From positions 77,292 to 141,291 of the forward strand of contig CAJNDT010005917.1 of NCBI GenBank assembly GCA_905221615.1: DNA of 64,000 nucleotides, written 5' to 3'. This DNA comes from Symbiodinium sp. CCMP2592. Lineage: Eukaryota; Sar; Dinophyceae; Suessiales; Symbiodiniaceae. Below the pieces are notes generated by a model. That model saw only the letters and a list, made by a program, of their open reading frames with translations, was not told where the DNA came from and did no database searches. A program made the translations under genes and the position numbers. This document shows, piece by piece, positions 4,075 to 62,467 of this stretch (position 1 is its first letter; each line of letters begins with the position of its first letter).

Positions 4075-4394
4075 GGTGGGGCCTGTAGATACTGCAGCAT
4101 CCGAATGCTTTGATGGAGACTTGTGCACCACAGGCCCAACCTGGGACAGCCCTGCTTGGAGGTTCATGGGTAGTTATAAGTAGGGTAACTATACTTATAA
4201 GCCATATTAGGGGACTTATAACCCTACTTATAACTACCCCTGAACCTCCAAGCAAAACAGGCCCAACCTGGGACAGCCCTGAGCGATCAGATCCTTGGAG
4301 AAGACCACGTCTGCTGGCGGGAGCTCGACGTTGGAGCTGCAGTCCGCCGCTAGGAATCTCAGGGGCTTCACTCTGTAACCAAGCAATTTCCAAG
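4075..4394 (-). CDS. Two exons split by a MITE intron, unknown protein
   Basis: Exon a runs 4394 to 4268 after an acceptor in TTCCCCAG; exon b runs 4140 to 4075 and ends at a GTGA donor. The 127-nt intron 4267-4141 starts GT, ends AG and contains family C MITE 4155-4252. Joining the exons keeps one open frame of about 64 codons (segments KLLGYRVKPLRFLAADC, then PPADVVFSKDLIAQGC, then TSLHQSIRMLQYLQAP). The protein is not recognised. Both splice junctions sit at the same place inside a 25-bp direct repeat (4130-4154 and 4257-4281), so splicing anywhere in it would rebuild the same exon. Confidence 0.6.
4130..4154. repeat. 25-bp direct repeat, left copy
   Basis: Perfect match to 4257-4281, one copy on each side of the MITE 4155-4252 (plus four extra bases CAAA). 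On the minus strand each copy carries CCCAG|GTTGGG, giving the acceptor here and the donor in the other copy. Confidence 0.9.
4155..4252. mobile_element. Family C MITE inside an intron
   Basis: Inverted ends CTTGGAGGTTCATGGG and CCCCTGAACCTCCAAG, with the inner words TAGTTATAAGTAGGG and TTATAACTACC shared with copies at 48709, 52387 and 57315. It is flanked by 25-bp direct repeats instead of the TA/TA seen at the other copies. Confidence 0.85.
4257..4281. repeat. 25-bp direct repeat, right copy
   Basis: Second copy of the repeat at 4130-4154; supplies the 5' splice site (minus strand, GT at 4267-4266). Confidence 0.9.
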
Positions 4395-17250: not shown

Positions 17251-18714
17251 TTACACCACCATGGTCAGCGCCGGCGTCAGCAAGTCTGCAGCAGCTCTTC
17301 GAGCATTCATGGCCTTGAGAATGTTGGAATAATTCCAAGTCAGGTCTCGGGCGGACTTGAGCTCGCCTGTGTTGCGATCGATCTGCTCGTTCATGTGCAT
17401 TCCATTCGTGAGGTACTTCTTCATGAGAAGCAGTAGAGCATCACCAGCTCCCAGCAGATTCTGCGACGTCGCCTCACGCCCCAACAAATCGGAAAGAAGC
17501 GTCTTCACCTCTCCTGTGGGCGGTGTATGAGCAGCAGCCGCCGCCTGGCGGTAGAGCAGCGTGGATGCAGAGGCCGTCAGCAACACCCAGGGATTTCCAC
17601 CGTCGTAGCTGTCGCCCTCGTAGCGGCCGAAGAGGACTCCCGGAAGGCCCTTGGATGCTGCCTGCTGATTGATGGCGTAGCTCCGGCAGAAGAGCTGGCT
17701 GAGCTCCGACAGTGTCGCCACGACCTCCTTGCTCAGGGGCGCAAACACTCCGTCATCCATGTCCCCAACGTTGAATGCCTCGATCACGGCAGTGTCCTTG
17801 CGGCGGTTCGAGGACTCGAAGACATAACCGGAGGAGTCGATGTGGGATGACAGCTGGCTGGCCAGGGCGGCGGCCGTCTCGCTGTACTTGGAAGCCCGGG
17901 CCTCATCACCGCCAACCGACTTGGCAAAGGCAGCACCCTGCTTCAATGCCTTGCGCATGGTGTAGCGGTTCCAGAAGAAGTCAGTAGAGCGCACCTCCTC
18001 CCAAAGATCGCAGGTCTCGCTGTCGTAGTTCTCCACCACCCAGTCAAGATTCTGCTTCACCAGGGCCCACACACGACCGCCCAGGCTCGGCTTCAGTCCG
18101 GCGTAGGCCATGGCAGTGATGGAGCGGAGACCTGGGCCATCGTTCTGCGGCCGGCACCAACCGCCAGTGTAAGGGGTGCCTTCCGGGATGAGGTACTTCG
18201 GCTCCACGAGGATGTTGATGTTGTTTGGGTCGGGCTGGTTCTGCGATTTCTCCAACCAAGAGATCCAAGCATCCATCTTCGCCTCCACCTCCGGCAGGGA
18301 GCCTTTAGCTTGCAAGTATGCATTCATGCTCAGAGCCCCGTCACGTGCCCATGCATAATAGTAATCGCCCCCGGGACCCGTGGCATGGTCGGGGGAAGCC
18401 ATGACCTCGCCGGTACCCTCTGCATCCAGGTTCGCCTCGAAGTACTTCGCGACCTCCTGCAGCTCTGCATCAGAAAAGGGAGTCTTTGGGTCTGCTCCGA
18501 TCTTGCAGCTCTGCACTTTCTTGTCGCTGAAGAAGCACCAGGGCAAGTTCTCTGGATTTGGATCTACAGGAGACCAGCAGCAGCCGGCGGCCGTGCAGGA
18601 GCCTTCGTCCATCTTCTGGCAGTCGACCCGCTCTGTTGGGGAGATCTGCTGGCATCCATCCGAAGAGGCCCAGATGGCTTGCAGGACGCTGGAAGCGCAC
18701 AGGGCCCTCAACAT
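17251..18714 (-). CDS. Secreted glucoamylase (GH15) with N-terminal trefoil domain
   Basis: A 487-residue intact, intronless ORF; glucoamylases release glucose from the non-reducing ends of starch and related glucans. Residues 1-18 form a short hydrophobic leader, so export or entry to an endomembrane compartment is likely. Residues 21-60 are a trefoil (P-type) domain with six Cys at 21, 32, 40, 45, 46 and 60 and the GCCW signature. The GH15 catalytic domain covers about 80-475: WARDG at 122-126, GGWCRPQNDGPGLRS at 184-198, DLWEEV at 236-241 with the general acid expected at Glu239, and HMNEQ with the catalytic base expected at Glu443, followed by ARDLTWNYSN. No starch-binding domain is visible, so length fits a catalytic domain plus trefoil. 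The start at 18714 is the ATG directly before the leader. The single exon in an intron-rich region suggests retroposition. The family assignment is firm; physiological role (own starch or external polysaccharide) is inference. Confidence 0.93.
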   Translation of the reverse strand: MLRALCASSVLQAIWASSDGCQQISPTERVDCQKMDEGSCTAAGCCWSPVDPNPENLPWCFFSDKKVQSCKIGADPKTPFSDAELQEVAKYFEANLDAEGTGEVMASPDHATGPGGDYYYAWARDGALSMNAYLQAKGSLPEVEAKMDAWISWLEKSQNQPDPNNINILVEPKYLIPEGTPYTGGWCRPQNDGPGLRSITAMAYAGLKPSLGGRVWALVKQNLDWVVENYDSETCDLWEEVRSTDFFWNRYTMRKALKQGAAFAKSVGGDEARASKYSETAAALASQLSSHIDSSGYVFESSNRRKDTAVIEAFNVGDMDDGVFAPLSKEVVATLSELSQLFCRSYAINQQAASKGLPGVLFGRYEGDSYDGGNPWVLLTASASTLLYRQAAAAAHTPPTGEVKTLLSDLLGREATSQNLLGAGDALLLLMKKYLTNGMHMNEQIDRNTGELKSARDLTWNYSNILKAMNARRAAADLLTPALTMVV

Positions 18715-18765
18715 GGCAATCAGCCGGCTCGGAGCTTTTTTAGGAGCTGCTTGGATGCTTTATCA

Positions 18766-37429: not shown

Positions 37430-37995
37430 CCTAAGTCCTCAGCCCTGCATGTACAGATCATCGTGGCGTGGCTCATGCGGCTCCTCTTCCTCCTCCTCGG
37501 CCTGCGCCCCCGTGGCCATCATGGCCATGGGATCGAAACTGGGCACCGATGGCACTCCAGGCACCCCGGGCACTGCAGGCACACCGCCGGCGCCCATCAT
37601 GTTGAACCTCACAGCCACATAAAGAACTCTAAGCGCTCGGCTCTTGATTTTTCTTTATCTAAGGGATGTCTGGGGCTGCGGTTGCAGTTGAGTGGGTAAT
37701 GTATCGAAGTGTGCTGACAAGACAATATGCAATGCATGCTGCAGGTGCGTGTGGTGACTTCGGGACACCCTGAACCCTGCCCAGTGCTAGCCACGAAGCA
37801 TGTTGCCCATCATCATCCCCATGCCGACCATCCTCAGCAAAGCACTACTCACCTACCTTGGAGCACGCATGACTTGCACCTTTCTGCATCGCGAGGCACT
37901 GCTGCATCTGCTGCATTTGCATCATTTGCATCTGCTGCATCTGCAGCATCGGATTCACCATACACGGTCCCGTCGGGCAGGGGCCCATGCCTCAG
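37430..37995 (-). CDS. Exons of a Met/Gln/Pro-rich protein
   Basis: Minus-strand segments: 37985-37885 (MGPCPTGPCMVNPM followed by repeated QMQQMQM units), 37840-37795 (MVGMGMMMGNMLRG) and 37625-37440 (NMMGAGGVPAVPGVPGVPSV, then MAMMATGAQ and a run of Glu). Low-complexity composition of this kind is common in RNA-binding or scaffold proteins, but no domain is visible. A segment of similar style sits at 39594-39471, on the far side of the capsid-bearing insertion. Confidence 0.45.
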
Positions 37996-38079
37996 CAGGA
38001 AATACCACTACTCTTTGAATCTAATGTAGATGCGGACGGCGGCTACAGTCTCCTCAGGGTCTATGGTGGACTGAGGTTT

Positions 38080-39459
38080 CTTGGAGGTTCAGGAATAGCT
38101 ATAAGTGGGGTTATACCCGAATACAAACTGACGGTCGCGATACTGCTGAAAATTGATCGCCATTGACTGTTGATGAAATGTAGGAAGATTAAACGCTTTT
38201 CGTAAATGATAAAATGCTTCTGTGATGGATTTACAGGGATATCAGGCATCAGTTTAGAACCCAGTTGAATTTGAAACTCTAAGTCTTTATTAGCATCATA
38301 CATGCCTTGGTCTAATGCGTCGTGCGATTGGTGGGGATGATAAAACCTGAAAAATTCTTTGTCCGCATATTCATAACCCTCGCTTGGGTCTCCCTGCTTG
38401 AAACTTGTAAAGAATGTAGCACCTAATTTAGATACAGAGCCAATTGCTTGAACATTAATATCTGTTAATCCTTTTACTGTTTGCGATTGAGTAATATGAG
38501 TTGTATAAGTAATTGGTAGTCCCTTTCCTTGTAAAAGATGCTGAACATATTCATTGTGCAAATATTGTTATCAAGGGTGCAAACATCACAGACAATGCGA
38601 GCGTTAGATATTTCCCAGTCTATTGATGTATTTGTTCCTTTTCCTACATCGCCTGCTACTGCTACTGTAAAACGATTTCGTAGGTCAGTTGTAATGCCTG
38701 TGTCGCTTTCATCATAATTGTTAGGGTCAATAATACAATCAACAGCAGAATTAACCAGCTCCAATTCAATAGTCAAATTACCCATATACTTTAATGGAAG
38801 ATACTTAAATTGAGAAAACCTGCCCGCCAATGGTTTAAAACAAACAGTCATTTCATTATAAAAGCCCTGACAATCTTCAGCATTAACTTCATAGACCAAT
38901 GCCGTGCTTCCAGCGTTATTTACTAATGTATTTAATGCGTCATCATATCTATATCCAAAACCTTCGCTCGCTTCGTCTTTTCGTGCTCCTGGAGACATTA
39001 ATTTAGAAAACATATGATGAACTCGATTAGAATTATCAAAATCTTCTACTACTTGATTACCAGCAATAATTCGCATTCTTCGGAAGAAAGAATACGGTGG
39101 TGATAGAGGACGAAGCTTTCTAAAACTAGTGCCGTCTTTGTTATTCAATGAAAAAAATTCTCGGACTGATTGAGGGTCTAACCAACGAGCCTGAAATCCG
39201 CCGAAGAGGAGGATGTTCGCGCAGGCCGCTTGCTTCATAGCGGGCGGGGCAATCTAGAGCCCAACCTAAACCCCTAAATTGAATAAGAACCCCCTCGCCT
39301 ACTCTGGGCTATGGCACCGAGGTAGATAGGAGTATTGAGAAACAGTCCTTCCTAAGATTGTAATTCTAAAATCGGGGCGGGTGGTGCCCTGTACCCAAAC
39401 TGGGCGAAGGGGGTCCTAACTCTTTCTACCCTACTTATAGCTACCCATGAACCTCCAAA
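38080..39459. mobile_element. 1.38-kb insertion with family C ends carrying a viral capsid gene fragment
   Basis: The left end 38080-38112 (CTTGGAGGTTCAGGAATAGC, then TATAAGTGGGGTTAT) and the reverse complement of the right end 39424-39459 (TTGGAGGTTCATGGGTAGCT, then ATAAGTAGGGT) match each other and the ends of family C MITEs. The interior is AT-rich against a GC-richer neighbourhood and holds the broken capsid gene (38110-39238) plus about 180 bp of unassigned DNA. No TA/TA duplication is seen at the borders. Confidence 0.7.
38110..39238 (-). pseudogene. Major capsid protein fragment, polinton-like-virus type, frameshifted
   Basis: From 39238 to 38474 one frame reads SPPYSFFRRMRIIAGNQVVE, NRVHHMFSKLMSPGARKDE, FSQFKYLPLKYMGNLTIELE and DWEISNARIVCDVCTLDN; the next frame, 38561 to about 38220, reads YVQHLLQGKGLPITY, SKLGATFFTSF and LEFQIQLGSKLMPDIPVNP. 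These blocks, in this order, are what I know from double-jelly-roll capsid proteins of polinton-like viruses and relatives. The frame changes near 38565 and again near 38220, so the copy is dead as it stands. The N-terminal part of the first jelly roll and the C-terminus are missing. Such viruses infect or integrate in protists. No packaging ATPase, penton, protease or integrase is in the window. Confidence 0.82.
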
Positions 39460-39470
39460 TCAGCCAGCAT

Positions 39471-39594
39471 GCAAGGCCCGCAGGGCGGACACGGCGCCAC
39501 CGGACTGCCCGGCAGCCCGAGACCGGCAGGCGTGCCATTTGAAGGTAGGGCAGGTGGCGCAGGGACGCCGGCGCATGGGGCCACCGCCTCATGG
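39471..39594 (-). CDS. Possible exon of the Pro/Gly/Cys-rich protein
   Basis: Minus-strand frame reads APCAGVPAPPALPSNGTPAG and LPGSPVAPCPPCGPCM. The CGPCM ending resembles the start of the segment at 37985 (GPCPTGPCM), which suggests that both belong to one gene and the viral insertion lies in the intron between them. All three frames are open here, so this is tentative. Confidence 0.3.
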
Positions 39595-39599
39595 AGTCA

Positions 39600-48708: not shown

Positions 48709-48818
48709 CTTGGAGGTTCATGGGTAGTTATAAGTAGGGTTATAAGTCCCCGAATATGGGTTATAAGTATAGTTACCCTACTTATAACCCTACTTATAAC
48801 TACCCCTGAAGCTCCAAG
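48709..48818. mobile_element. Family C MITE, well preserved
   Basis: Ends CTTGGAGGTTCATGGGTAGT and CTACCCCTGAAGCTCCAAG, flanked by TA/TA. Centre CCCGAATATGGGTTATAAGT. Confidence 0.92.
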
Positions 48819-51507: not shown

Positions 51508-51626
51508 CTTGAAGGATCATGGGACTTGTAACTAAGGTTATTATTAGGGTAACTATACTTATAACTACTTATAACCCCAATTAAGGTACTTATAACCATA
51601 CTTACTAAGTCCCATGATCCTCCAAG
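51508..51626. mobile_element. Family C2 MITE, well preserved
   Basis: Ends CTTGAAGGATCATGGGACTT and AAGTCCCATGATCCTCCAAG, flanked by TA/TA. Reference copy of C2. Followed by a CCCTAAA patch at 51629-51712. Confidence 0.9.
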
Positions 51627-51924: not shown

Positions 51925-52884
51925 GGCTCGGGCCTGAGCCAGTTCAGCCGCCGGGTGCGGGCCAGGCCCCGGGGCGACGGAGCGCGTCGTCAGCGCCCCC
52001 GCTGCAGCATCGGCTTCCTCCGCGGCCTCAGACAGCGCAAGCTTTGTCAACAAAATACTAGTAAGAATATGTAAGAATGATAGCAAGAATAGTAACAATG
52101 ATAAGAATGATAATAATCATAATGACAATAGTACTCAGAAGTATCATAACAGAAAAAAACATAATGAGTCCATAAGCCCTTAGACCTCCAACCACATCCC
52201 TTGCCGGCAAGCGTCGACATCTGCCCGATCTCCGCGAGCCTTCAGGCGGGCCAAGCGTGCAGCTTCCACGAGGACGTTCAGGCAGCGACCGAAATACTTC
52301 GCATCGCTTTGAGAGAGGAAGATGAACTCGCAGAACCGGTCATCTTCCAGTTCCAGACCTTGGGTCAAAGCACTTCGGGCATCCTACTTGGAGGTTCATG
52401 GGTAGGTTATACGTAGGGTTTTAAGTAGGGTAACTATACTATACTTATAACCCATATTAGGGGACTTATAGCCCTACTTATAACTACCCTCATTGAACCT
52501 CCAAGTAAGTTTGTCAATTCGGGATTCGCAGTTTGGCGCTGCCAGAGCACGGACTGCCCAGAAGGGGTCGCTTGATGCCTCCAGCTGCTCAAGCCTCCGG
52601 TAGGGGCCAGAGTTCTTGTACCTTAGCCGCCCTTAGGATCAAAACAGAAATCACATGGTTCATATTCTCTTCGTCTTTAGATGAACAGAAACACAAAATT
52701 TCCAAGAAGACTTTAGGTACACGGAGACATGCTGCACGCCCCCAAGGCGTATGGTCTTCTCTACGCCGTTGAAGACCAGCGTCAAAGTCTCCCAGGGCTG
52801 GTCCAGCTTGGCGTCCACATCGAGGCCAATTCCATCCAAGCTCAGGATGAGGCGAACGCCACTATTCATCTGCTCAACGAAGAC
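51925..52884 (-). CDS. Exons of a protein with a PH-like fold, MITE in the intron
   Basis: Exon 52884-52723 (162 nt, phase 0, acceptor CTCTGCAG|G, donor GTGTAC) encodes SGVRLILSLDGIGLDVDAKL and LTLVFNGVEKTIRLGGVQHV, a run of beta strands. Exon about 52384-52206 encodes LELEDDRFCEFIFLSQSDAK and FGRCLNVLVEAARLARLKA, which looks like the last strands and C-terminal helix of a pleckstrin-homology-type domain. A third segment, 52050-51925, encodes KLALSEAAEEADAAAGALTT. Family C MITE 52387-52505 ends exactly at the acceptor of the second exon (CCAAGTAG|G). The PH assignment is by fold texture only. Confidence 0.5.
52080..52165. repeat. AT-rich AAGAATGATA low-complexity tract
   Basis: Degenerate AATGATAAT-type units; a TTATT-rich counterpart precedes at 51825-51905. 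Confidence 0.6.
52387..52505. mobile_element. Family C MITE at an intron 3' end
   Basis: Ends CTTGGAGGTTCATGGGTAGG and TTGAACCTCCAAG, flanked by TA/TA. The left end borders an exon of the PH-like gene. Confidence 0.9.
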
Positions 52885-54674: not shown

Positions 54675-57600
54675 TACTCCGGCTCATCTTCAGAGGGAGC
54701 TTCATCATCGGTTTGCTCGTCTGCTTCCGACTGTGTCTTCCTCGAGTCCTGCCAGGTGTGGAGGGTGGAAATCGGCCGCAAAAAACTTAGCCATCCGTGA
54801 GGAAGCGGACTTCGAGAGCCTGCAGTCATGGGCAAGTGTCCTGCCGGCCCTCAGGATAGAGCTGCTTGAACTTCGGTGTCGGTGCCAACTCTCCTCATTG
54901 AGGCACCACTCATGTCATTTCTCGTTCCAAAACGCTCAGATCCCGTCTTAAGGGTTTTGAGGGCCTGGGGCCTGGTCACATTTCTTCGAGGCTTTTGTCT
55001 CAGCCTAGGCTTTATTCTGACAGGTTGCCTAGCGCAAGCCGCCAGAGGCGTTGAGAATGACTGTGTGATACTCCGATACTCCTTCATGCTTTTGGGGGTT
55101 AGCACCGGGGTCCTTACCCTCAACCCTAAACCTTAAACCCGAAATCCCGGAAAGCCTCCAGAATGCCAGGTCACCCTGGTTGGAGCGACTCAGGAGATCG
55201 CCGTCGGTGTGCACCGTCCCCACATCTGCGAAAGAAGGGATCATGTCTCCGGAATTTCCTTAGAAGGCTCGCAGGTGATCTCTTGCATGTGCAATCTCTC
55301 CATTCAGTCGAAAGTCCTGTTGAAAGCGCCGTCCTATTCAATACTGCGACTTGTCTCGAGCCGTCTAGCCCAGAACGGAAAAGAGAAACCACTCCGAGGT
55401 GTTTGACAAGATGACAGAGCCCAACCTAGAGCAAAGCTCGTCAGGGGCCAGGTGTCGGTGAACTCGCCGTGCTTGCCTGCTATCCTCTTCTGACCTAAGC
55501 GACACCGGCCAAGCAGCTCCACCATGCTGTTCTTTCGGGCTCGAAACAATTATTCCTCTGACTTCTCTGAATATTTTGCCGCCTTTTTCTGATTTTCGTG
55601 GTGTTTCGTTGCTGCTCTCGTGGTCCTGAGCTACAAGTACTGGTTTTTCTGAGGCCGACACCGCTCTGACTCCGAGGCAGAGTCTGTCTCCTCCTCCTCA
55701 GCACCTGAGCTGCACCGAGGTGTCAATAGGGGAGTTTCCGAGAATTCATCAGGGTGCGTTATTTTCGGGCCCCTATAATGAGGATCCTACTATTTAGGGT
55801 TTTAGATTAGGGTCCACTATTTTCGGAAAGGGCAGATGCTCAACGGGTCCCAGCTCTTCCGGAACAACGCGACCGCGTCACCGATATCGCCAGAAGCCCA
55901 GGACTCGGCCTCAGAGTGGATTCGGGTGTTTCAGAATGGGGGACCCGAATATAGTAATATAGCACCCGAAATGGCAGGATCCTTAATCTAAGCATCCCAA
56001 AATAAGGTATCCCTATTTTCGGAGACTCCCATTTGGCTGTGTGCCATGCTGGCGCTCAAGTGCTGTTTCTTCATCTCAGCTTTTGACCCTCACTCAATGT
56101 GGACAAGACTTTGCGGACACACGGTAAGCTCCAGCAAGTGCTTCATGACTTTTTCTGTGTGAGCATGTGTGAAGTGGATTCGTTGCCGTCGAGTGGCGGT
56201 GCGGGTCTCTAGCCACTCCTCCTTGGCCACAACTCTTCGGACGCCCGTCGCAGTGTTGGCAAAGGTCACCCAACCGTCCTCCAGAGCGCACTAAAGAACC
56301 TCGCCTAAAGAAAGTGTGTACTGGTTAACTTCGCGTGGGCCATCTTCAGAGAGTGCAACCAGTCATCGTTCAGAGGTTCGGCGTGTGCCGGCATCACAAG
56401 TACCAGCAACAGCATACTACAGCGCGCTGCCCAGTTCTGCTGTACCCGAGACTGGGCTCTACTACATGCCGGATGGACTGACTGTCACTATTCAACAAAC
56501 CCCCACTGCCCGGCGGTCCGGCTGATGGAGACGAGCTCGCCTGAGCTCTGATGAAAGCATAACCGCATTGACCGCAAGGTAGAGAACAGCATTGTTACAA
56601 CACACTTTCGGTAACCAGCGTGTAAAAGTGCCATCATACTGGGACCTATTGCAGGTCGGGAAAATGCCGCATATCCCAGAGGTAGACAGCCTCAACGTTC
56701 CATCACTCGGTCCAACATGCACCGCACCACCCAAACCACGACTGAGCCAAGCCTTCAAGGGAACCCTTACAGGATCCCTTAAAGGAGCCCGTAAAGGGAA
56801 CCCTTATAGATCCCTTAAAGGAACCCTTAAAGGGATCTTCTGAGCTCGGAACACTCGTTTCTCTTCCTTCAGCTCCACGATTTCCACCGCGCGAACCTCT
56901 TGGCCTGCGACGACCCGACCATGCGCCCAGGGAGGCTTGGACCCTCTCAAAGGGAAAAAGGAGCAACCCTTCATAAGGACCCCTAGGTCTAGAAGCTTAA
57001 TATAGCTATTATTATATACCCATTAAATGGTCCATTATAGGGTAGGGGTCCCCATTAAGGGTCCCTCCTTTTGCCCTTGCTTGCACTCTGGGAAGTTCGC
57101 CTTCCTCGAGCTCCTCGACGACCTCATCGTCATCCTGCTCCAGGCTCAAGGTTCAGGGCGTTTGAATGTCTCACAGCCTGATTTCGTAAGTCTTAGTGTT
57201 AGTTAGTCACAGTGGATTGCTTCCTGGGGTCTGGGCTCGTCACCTCGCTGCTCGGGATGCGTGTCGCCATACACACAGCTCCACCGATCTCTATGGACGA
57301 AGTTGCAGAATGTACTTGGAGGTTCAGGGGTAGTTATAAGTAGGGTTACAAGTCCCCTACCATGGGTTATAAGTGTAATTATCCTAATTGTAACTGTACT
57401 TATAACGACCCATGAACCTCCAAGTAGGAACCCACGTACGCAGCTAAGCTGCAGGATCAAAGGTCTTTGCATCGCGGGCAACGAAAGCCGGGCGCAGCAA
57501 GATGTACCTTATGCAGCTGCTAGCTCCATCGCAAGTCCAGTAACATACATGCCGATAAATTGGTCTCGAGACAGTTTCACGATCGTTTGAACAGCTCCAG

Positions 57601-59744: not shown

Positions 59745-60903
59745 CGACGTAGTGAGCCGCGAACATCAGTAGCAACGTTACGGTAAGGAACGATACTACG
59801 TCTGCGACCCGAAGGTATGCCCAAACGGAGCCCACGGACCCGAAGGGGAGGGCGTTGTGGGTCCACAGGCTGGGCGGCTTTCCTGGCATCACCAGTCCGC
59901 ACTCTGTAGGCTCGCGAACCGGTAGAGACCTGTAAGCACCTTCATGGTCAATGGCGCCCAGGAGCACCGGCTCTTCGAAAGTCTCTGAGCACTGCAACAC
60001 TCCGCCCACAACTGTAGGGCCACCGAGGTACGGCGGTGTATCGACCGCTGAGATGGTACTATTGTGAAACGACCGAAGCCAGTCGTCTGCTCTGCGAACC
60101 TTGTCGTTCTGTACCACGGCAAAACCCCTAGCAACCTGAACTGAAGCTGGCTCTTGCTGGTCACCTAAGAGCGACAGGGGAAGAGGACCTTGCACGCGAC
60201 CTAGGCTTCGTTCCTTCTGCAGCTCAGCCATCATCGACTCGTGATGTTCGGGCTGAGGGGAGGTCTGGCGTAGGGTCAGGGCCAGTTGTCTGTTGGCGGA
60301 CAGGAAATCCTGCTTTGCAAGGGGACGAGCGTACTTGGCATCGTCCCGGTTAAGCCAGCCGGAGCCGCGAACCATGGGTCCTAGTAACCTAAAACCCCAA
60401 AACAACTCGGATAGAAGCTCCTTGCGACCTGGGAACTGGCACAATTCCAGAAGCCATGCGAGAGGCAAAAGCTGAAACTTCAGTTGTGGCGAACCTTGCT
60501 GGTAGACTGAGGCCACGTGCGCCGGAAGGGCTTGCAGTGCTTCTGCTTGGTCCTCGTGCAGCTCTGCGACCAAGTCTTGCAGGTCCTGTAGGACAGCTTG
60601 GCGAACTTGTACGACCTTGAGACCTAACCTTGCTTGCACCTGAAATGTCCACGACAGGCAGGGGTTGAGCGGTGCAGGGAACACATCTGCGAACGTGAGC
60701 TGCTTGGCCCATAGAAAATGTGCGCTTGCACCTGCGCCTGGTGACCGGAAGGGAGGAACGTAGCCACCACGAAGCGACCCTTTGGAGAGGGCGGCTACCA
60801 TCGGGGTGCCATCGGACCTGAAAACAAGGGTCCGGTACGCTGGGGTACCACTCTTCAACACGAACCGGGTGTGCGTCCATGACTCCTGCTTGGCACAAGA
60901 TCA
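59739..60903 (-). CDS. Reverse transcriptase, retroelement
   Basis: Frame opens at 60903 (after a stop) and overlaps the end of the methyltransferase frame. RT signatures: motif A LLGAIDHEGAYRSLPV (about 59955-59915), motif B HNALPFGSVGSVWAYLRV (about 59860-59815), motif C AHYVDDFF (about 59760-59740) with the two catalytic Asp. The DIRS-like style is shown by the AYR after motif A and LPFGS in motif B. The same frame runs on to 59392 as an unrelated reading because the frame changes at a T6 run (59739-59744); the true continuation is the ORF ending at 58653. Upstream residues (about 60800-60100) are a poorly conserved linker. Confidence 0.85.
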
Positions 60904-62425
60904 GCAGCACGAGAAGTCTGGCGACCCCCGCGTGCCAGGCGTTACCCAGCAACTTTGCTCTCGCATGGGGCGAAACTGAGGCTGTGTAACCGCTTGGCAG
61001 GAGCTGTAGCCACTCACGAGTGGCAGGGTCGGGGAGGTCTTTCTTGCCCGCGACCTGAACCAAGGCGTGCGTACGAAACTGCCAAGGTGGGTAGGAGCGG
61101 TTGGCTGCTTTCCAGCGTTCCATTGTACCCGGGCTCTCGGAACGGCGCTTCTTGCCTGGAGGTTCACGACCCTGTGTGCTCTCAGCTGGTGTCGTGAGAC
61201 ACGGAAACCTTATCCGCCCTGAAGTGACCTCTTCACTAAAGGTTGCGAACGGGCAGGACTGCGCAACCTGTCGGGGAAACAGGGTGCTGTTGGGTATGAG
61301 CTCCCAATGTCTGTTCAGGCGGCGCCAGCGTGCTTGACCTCCCAACGCGACCGGAGGTTCGCGAACATTCTCCGGGGGAGGGGAAACCATGTTCGACCAC
61401 CAAAGTCTCGGTCGTGACACGACGCCCCAACAGGACGCGTCGCATGCGAATGCGCGGCAGCCCAGAGCCTTGTCAAGCTCTTGCTGCTGGGAAGCGGACA
61501 TGTGCACGTTCTCTACCAAAAACAGAACCCTAAAATTCGAAGCCTGAACGAACTCCAGGAGCCAGGCAGCGAACTGAGTGAACTTAGAGCCCTCCTTTCC
61601 TTGTGTACCTGGAGGATCGCTGCGCATCCTGGAGAAATCATGGCAAGGAGGGGCAGCGAACAGTAGGAGCACCGTGTCCTTGGGCACTGACGCGGCGAGC
61701 GCTGCGAGAACCTCGTGAGGCTTGCGGCCGAACGCATCGCCGTGATGAATCATCTCGGGGTGTTGCGAGGAGGCGACCTTGATGGCATCAGGGTCTAGCT
61801 CCCAGGACCAAGACAGGACCGGTCTTATGGCCCAGCTCTTGACCGCGTGGAGAGCGGTGGCTATGCCGTCGAAGAAGCTGAGAACTGCGACCGGGAAGCG
61901 AGGTTGTTGTGCATGAGGTGTTGGTGTAGTGGCCTGACTCCCAGGGATTGTGGTCGGCGGAGCCACGTGAGGCTGCAACGCCTGATGGGGTATGTTGAGA
62001 CGCGGAGCCACGAGAGGCTGCGACGCGTGATGCGAGGATTGATGGGGCGGAGTCACGTGAGACGTCAACGCCTGTGCTGCTGGGTTAGGGGTGAGTACGA
62101 CTGGTATGCGTGCTCCCTGTGACGACTCAGCTGTTGCCGTGTCGTTGACGCGGACTGGCACGGGAGGGGGGGGTGGAAAAGGCGGTTTGGCTCGTGGCGG
62201 AGCCGACAGAGGCTCGGACGCCGGGGCCTTGCGCTGCACTCTTGCTGTATCCTTCTGGGACGTTGGCCGTTGTGCCATGGTTGGGACCTGGTTGCTGCAA
62301 CGACTCGGCACCTGCGAACCTAACCTGTTACCAGGGATTAAGGGTCCGGGCGCCAAAGGCGGAGCACACGGGGCAAGGCTTAGGGTCTTAGGGGGGGAAA
62401 AGGCTGGACTACCGTCTTTGCTCAT
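60389..62425 (-). CDS. C5 cytosine DNA methyltransferase, retroelement-encoded
   Basis: 678-codon frame starting MSKDGSPAF at 62425, 42 nt after the Gag stop. Residues 1-178 are Pro/Ser/His-rich linker. The methyltransferase core starts at about 180: motif I VLSFFDGIATALHAV (SAM binding), WELDPDAIKVA at 208-218, GDAF at 229-232, motif IV FAAPPCHDFSRM with catalytic Cys261 (codon 61645-61643), motif VI LVENV at 303-307, motif VIII CWGVVSRPRLWW at 332-343 and a motif X-like KLLGNAWHAGVARLL near the end of the domain. Key residues of C5 methyltransferases are present. The last ~160 codons (after 60900) overlap the RT frame and look non-coding, so the domain probably ends near 60900 with a frame change into RT. 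It would methylate cytosine in DNA, perhaps the element's own copies. Confidence 0.88.
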   Translation of the reverse strand: MSKDGSPAFSPPKTLSLAPCAPPLAPGPLIPGNRLGSQVPSRCSNQVPTMAQRPTSQKDTARVQRKAPASEPLSAPPRAKPPFPPPPPVPVRVNDTATAESSQGARIPVVLTPNPAAQALTSHVTPPHQSSHHASQPLVAPRLNIPHQALQPHVAPPTTIPGSQATTPTPHAQQPRFPVAVLSFFDGIATALHAVKSWAIRPVLSWSWELDPDAIKVASSQHPEMIHHGDAFGRKPHEVLAALAASVPKDTVLLLFAAPPCHDFSRMRSDPPGTQGKEGSKFTQFAAWLLEFVQASNFRVLFLVENVHMSASQQQELDKALGCRAFACDASCWGVVSRPRLWWSNMVSPPPENVREPPVALGGQARWRRLNRHWELIPNSTLFPRQVAQSCPFATFSEEVTSGRIRFPCLTTPAESTQGREPPGKKRRSESPGTMERWKAANRSYPPWQFRTHALVQVAGKKDLPDPATREWLQLLPSGYTASVSPHARAKLLGNAWHAGVARLLVLLILCQAGVMDAHPVRVEEWYPSVPDPCFQVRWHPDGSRPLQRVASWWLRSSLPVTRRRCKRTFSMGQAAHVRRCVPCTAQPLPVVDISGASKVRSQGRTSSPSCPTGPARLGRRAARGPSRSTASPSGARGLSLPARFATTEVSAFASRMASGIVPVPRSQGASIRVVLGF

Positions 62426-62467
62426 TGCGGGTGTCGCCCCCGACGGCTGAGGCGGTCCGAGCTGTCC

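Follow-up and report, generated by a model that had tools for sequence, protein, structure and literature searches.

Are the MITEs of family C the shrunken remains of polinton-like viruses, or did a MITE come to hold viral DNA? An earlier note had put forward both readings for a composite at 38080-39459 of the window (the whole stretch of 64,000 nucleotides analyzed here, C5055:77292-141291), where family C ends enclose a minus-strand capsid-gene fragment (Table 1). The genome searched, presumably that of a dinoflagellate, comprises 1.098 Gb in 5383 contigs. The left end carries the family C 12-mer CTTGGAGGTTCA at 38080-38091 (plus strand), and the right end carries TTTGGAGGTTCA at 39448-39459 (minus strand), with one mismatch; inward of each 12-mer stands TATAAGT(G/A)GGGT. 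As the note had stated, the ends match each other and those of family C. The arms at 38081-38111 and 39428-39458 are 87% complementary over 31 nucleotides (27/31 identical, matched by none of 500 letter shuffles of both end stretches), and five more small C elements within the window have like ends. With up to two mismatches allowed, the C 12-mer occurs 26 times in the window versus 6.19 expected, a count reached in none of 100 shuffles.

Table 1. Features of the composite and other family C elements in the window
Feature	Position	Strand	Description
Stretch left of C end	38042..38079	+	38 bp; part of repeat nest
Left family C end	38080..38116	+	C positions 1-36/37
Capsid gene fragment	38117..39185	-	Codons ~61-416 of ~479; two frame breaks
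Unmatched 63-bp stretch	39186..39248	none	65% GC
Family D repeat, right end part	39249..39425	+	177 bp; nested in C
Right family C end	39426..39459	-	C similarity inward to C position 69, past D border
Open frame P0002	38474..39253	-	5' part of capsid fragment plus nonviral letters beyond 39185
Open frame P0001	38061..38567	-	Middle of capsid fragment, extends into C end
Small C element	4155-4252		
Small C element	48709-48818		
Small C element	51508-51626		
Small C element	52387-52505		
Small C element	57315-57424		

Family C elements are about 98 to 120 bp long and have inverted ends. Elsewhere, TA stood on both sides of the element in 15 of the 31 rows (some of them overlapping), on one side in 12, and on neither side in 4; we take the family to be Tc1/mariner-like by its TA target only. 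No transposase for family C was found. A Pfam scan of 19 of the 48 other window frames of at least 130 amino acids (a set that leaves out both capsid frames), plus one 51-amino-acid frame beside the insert, gave no transposase and no capsid-type viral gene. Farther away in the window, a 502-amino-acid frame at 17251-18759 (minus strand) has a glycosyl hydrolase family 15 domain (4.1e-49) and a trefoil domain (8.3e-10), and a 692-amino-acid frame at 60389-62467 (minus strand) has a weak C-5 cytosine DNA methylase match (0.0013, below Pfam's cutoff). Cysteine-, glycine-, and proline-rich frames flank the insert at 37845-37991 and 39441-39596 (both on the minus strand; no Pfam match for the latter). 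By eye, these two frames look as if they may be parts of one gene, and the insert may therefore lie in an intron.

The enclosed gene had been described as a broken double-jelly-roll capsid gene of polinton-like-virus type, and this description held up, including the minus-strand frames, the two frame breaks, and the missing ends. P0002 and P0001 align consecutively to the same homologous proteins, with P0001 taking up where P0002 ends, and a further frame break lies near the 3' end of the fragment. P0002 has 178 protein homologues at an E value of ≤0.001 (the 120 listed all come from ENA) and 147 scored places among 395 candidates in the genome. Judged by eye, the genome matches are mostly open frames of about 470 to 520 residues, so open capsid copies exist in number. 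On C5211, two of these related capsid genes are separated by 19.5 kb.

The proposed profile and structure check gave a divided result. Searched apart, the two frames matched no Pfam family, had only two weak matches in PHROGs, and had only chance-level sequence matches in the PDB. A scan of viral contigs with P0002 found none, and one with alignment A1 yielded 73 stretches that fit a pattern, none of which was confirmed. Structure comparison was more informative and was done on a relative of the window fragment, P0021 (450 residues), which was folded from 34 sequences into a modest model (mean pLDDT, 55.1; pTM, 0.54). Foldseek gave 66 PDB matches to this model at an E value of ≤0.001; the 50 listed are all double-jelly-roll capsid or D13 scaffold entries, and the entries matched include iridovirus, chlorovirus, Sputnik, and mavirus. 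In a viral library, 24 of the 42 matches are named capsid or coat protein, and the best match (2.0e-10) is named BTB-domain protein. TM-scores were low (0.20 to 0.42), so the fold class is supported rather than its detail. The modeled relative is thus predicted to share the fold of known double-jelly-roll major capsid proteins. With the 178 homologues, the 147 genome places, and the Foldseek matches of the longer relative, we consider the identification of the fragment as capsid a good one.

The viral piece is about 1.07 kb long. DNA homology to its seven nearest copies spans about 38117 to 39185. In the genome searches across the junctions, the right viral limit again fell at 39185, and the left limit fell at 38117 for most viral rows, with two or three rows beginning up to 8 bases earlier. 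The locus does not hold a complete viral element, as only part of one gene is present and the ends are those of family C. The earlier picture of a single AT-rich insertion filling 38080-39459 needs narrowing. The C ends do enclose viral DNA, and the viral part is indeed AT rich (37.0% GC, with 56.8% and 55.2% in the flanking kilobases), but viral homology stops at 39185, the following stretch to 39248 has 65.1% GC, and 39249-39425 is a second repeat. Similarly, a C end does stand at 38080, but this position is not the outer limit, as 38042-38079 is also repeat.

The fragment is 88 to 90% identical to its five nearest copies. Its private changes at codon positions 1, 2, and 3 number 17/341, 12/352, and 49/288, compared with 6/347, 2/355, and 43/331 in the open copy L002. 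This codon-position pattern suggests that, since its separation from the other copies, the fragment was a gene for most of the time and then evolved without constraint for a shorter period. In its present state, it has no evident function.

Were C MITEs reduced viruses, complete viruses would be expected to carry C at their ends, and the tested ones do not. The complete virus on C1580 has inverted ends (208 columns, 94%) that lie 20.5 kb apart, and its end tip is unrelated to C. The downstream end of this virus is common to copies on C126, C724, C3413, and C3546. A virus of another lineage, on C5049, has inverted ends of a third sequence (626 columns, 93.8%) bounding 20.3 kb. In Pfam, the C1580 element matched an A32-type ATPase (8e-12), a GIY-YIG domain (2.5e-5), and, below Pfam's cutoff, an integrase core (1.6e-4), while no polymerase family was matched. 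This gene set fits a polinton-like virus, and hallmark genes are present in one related copy. The window insert holds none of the ATPase, GIY-YIG, and integrase genes.

C ends were also missing around other capsid genes. Even with generous mismatch, none was found in 16 10-kb flanks of eight capsid copies (160 kb; for three copies, gaps of up to about 2 kb between flank and capsid match were left out) or in the seven capsid loci L002 to L008, and the C-end pattern had no exact match in the viral contigs. Conversely, among 62 sampled C ends (two small samples), none lay within 30 kb of a place on the capsid list, which is a lower bound, and the nearest was 123 kb away. The first sample comprised 32 ends (44 rows less the own locus, 7 D-only rows, and 4 second ends). 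The second comprised 30 ends (41 rows less the own locus, 9 viral rows, and 1 second end) and was compared with 146 capsid places and one further place from the left-junction search. Short capsid matches on C406, C246, and C4884 were considered as further composites and rejected, as they have no C end and viral homology runs through most of each piece. The proposal that family C arose from the virus by internal deletion is thus contradicted, as judged from sequence comparison, for the two lineages tested. The note had itself listed complete viral copies with different ends among the observations that would count against the proposal, and both lineages have them.

On its left side, the composite has a virus-free counterpart on C558. 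This counterpart (177 bp, L060:264-440, with TA on both sides) consists of an outer C tip, then a stretch of 35 to 38 bp, and then a nearly whole inner C element, which is uninterrupted over C positions 3 to 104 and contains neither viral DNA nor D. The window matches it at 90% over 72 bp (38042-38113). Within 38042-38079, 36 of 38 positions are identical, and this stretch precedes the C end there too; at C558:1015500, the 20 letters left of the window C end occur together with the C end. Because of this sharing, 38042-38079 is part of a repeat nest and not unique flank. Where C continues in C558, viral DNA starts in the window; since the left sequence of C558 runs on as uninterrupted C, the window state is the derived one on this side. 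The outer C tip of the C558 composite was not seen in the window, and therefore the true outer left end has been lost or is unrecognized there. The dinucleotides at the window composite are TT at 38080 and TC at 39459. As C558 shows that 38080 is not the outer end, the TT says nothing on TA-target insertion, and the lack of TA at 38078-38079 does not speak against movement, since the outer left end was not located. The right flank of the composite is single copy in the genome, so there is no paralogous empty site. Among 41 scored rows, only the window's own row spans the left junction. Short shared letters at this junction were considered as microhomology and rejected, as they prove nothing.

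On the right side, 39186-39248 had no match elsewhere in the genome search, and only the window itself spans the right junction among 18 scored rows. Neither this stretch nor D had a viral match. Among the eight D places examined (L010 to L015, L021, and L031), a C end adjoins D in L031 only. L031 is part of a 2030-bp element at C1446:913977-916006 that has C ends and TA on both sides, and in which a D element with inverted ends (85%) is nested inside C. After D, C resumes at about position 69 to 73 in both the C1446 element and the window. Because the C1446 element has this arrangement, we take the window D to be nested in C as well. Inside the D of the C1446 element (L031/L055) lie GC-rich sequence and also a smaller inverted repeat (TTGATGATATAAATCCTGCA...), which occurs within the 215-bp C element of L026 too. 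MITEs thus nest inside MITEs in this genome (C1446 element and L026).

On our best reading, the C ends belong to a MITE and not to the virus, and what is left at the locus stems from two unrelated sources. The viral fragment was, in our estimation, probably joined in place into an old MITE nest, likely by illegitimate repair. A family C MITE of the TA-target type would first have held a family D repeat inside and adjoined the 38-bp stretch known from the other C composite. Later, the capsid-gene piece of an endogenous polinton-like virus, together with 63 bp of other DNA, would have joined in, and C would have lost its middle and D its left part. Most likely, a break inside the MITE was repaired by illegitimate end joining or with template switching, and the presumed donor was one of the many viral copies; the junctions bear no clear signature of the mechanism. 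We favor this reading because viral homology stops sharply on both sides, because C558 has the same left sequence as virus-free C, because D sits in C as in the C1446 element, because complete viruses have other ends, and because neither junction has a second copy among the scored matches. Against it stands the D parallel, which comes from one of eight D places and is only 69% similar to the window. Of the earlier note's second option, a MITE holding viral DNA survives, but the holder was already a nested MITE, and active capture or transport was not shown.

Joining in place is preferred to transport with cargo, in which a C-ended element of Pack type would have acquired the capsid fragment at another site and, moving by its ends, brought it to this one. 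We regard such transport as unlikely. Inverted C ends do lie on both sides of the cargo, and both C1446 and C558 have C elements that contain nested sequence and are flanked by TA on either side; however, neither junction has a second copy, TC and not TA follows the right end, and the left end is not an outer end. That composite C elements take up endogenous viral gene pieces and carry them to new places seems, as a general proposition, quite doubtful. If true, the MITE population would spread viral coding sequence, and this locus would represent a viral Pack-type element in a worn state.

A chance neighborhood, in which the viral fragment is flanked by two independent C elements that were both truncated on the inner side, is very unlikely. 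The density of C elements (five others in 64 kb) and the 4 differences among 31 arm positions would agree with it, but two separate truncations would be needed, one of them meeting the viral piece exactly at C position ~37, along with outward-facing tips. Moreover, the left and right C parts (positions 1 to 37 and 69 to 109) are what one C element gives. We consider an assembly artefact joining viral and MITE sequence highly improbable. Both sequences are high copy in the genome, and excerpts of Bellas et al. (2023; PMC10120064) report assembly errors at such viral copies, but with 88 to 90% identity to its five nearest copies, the fragment is not a misplaced piece of one of them, and between it and D lie 63 bp that occur only at this site. 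The derivation of family C from the virus by internal deletion, for which C ends on both sides of viral DNA would speak, is the least credible reading and extremely improbable, given the other ends of two complete copies and four kin, the empty flanks and capsid loci, the 0 of 62 C ends near listed capsid places, the lack of an exact C-end match in viral contigs, and the lack of viral matches to D and the 63 bp.

On this evidence, the tempting link does not hold, and MITE family C is not a reduced form of the polinton-like viruses abundant in this genome. The locus also shows that, where two large repeat populations have left a composite relic, an interpretation from the ends alone can go astray. 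What remains is a modest finding, namely, a decayed viral fragment set in an unusual nest whose left side has a virus-free counterpart at another place in the genome.

Like TA-target MITEs in general, family C combines a small size, inverted ends, and, in about half of the rows (15/31), TA on both sides, whereas D and viral DNA interrupt the window copy. At the window composite, the inverted ends are present, the neighbors are TT and TC, and the outer left end is either lost or situated beyond 38080. Integration of polinton-like viruses on a massive scale in protists, dinoflagellates among them, has been published (Bellas et al. 2023; PMC10120064), and excerpts of that article describe a "Dino group" capsid cluster of endogenous polinton-like viruses of protists and thousands of capsid genes in Polarella. 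According to similar excerpts, further cases of integration come from Oxyrrhis (PMC12721341) and Karenia brevis blooms (PMC13037468), Maverick elements occur in Breviolum (PMC11071213), and introner elements with inverted repeats occur in Amoebophrya (PMC7789003). Among the titles and abstract openings retrieved by word searches of the open-access literature, none concerned a viral capsid fragment inside a MITE. This genome resembles the excerpted account of the Dino group viruses (PMC10120064) in its many integrated viruses of ~20 kb with a double-jelly-roll capsid gene and long inverted ends, a likeness drawn without sequence comparison to the cluster; the window, in contrast, has one truncated capsid piece without viral ends. 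Compared with the Pack-TYPE transposons of plants, as excerpted from PMC8903248 and PMC13317346, the window cargo comes from an endogenous virus, the host is not a plant, and no second junction copy was found; the likeness lies in a foreign coding fragment held between the inverted ends of a nonautonomous element.
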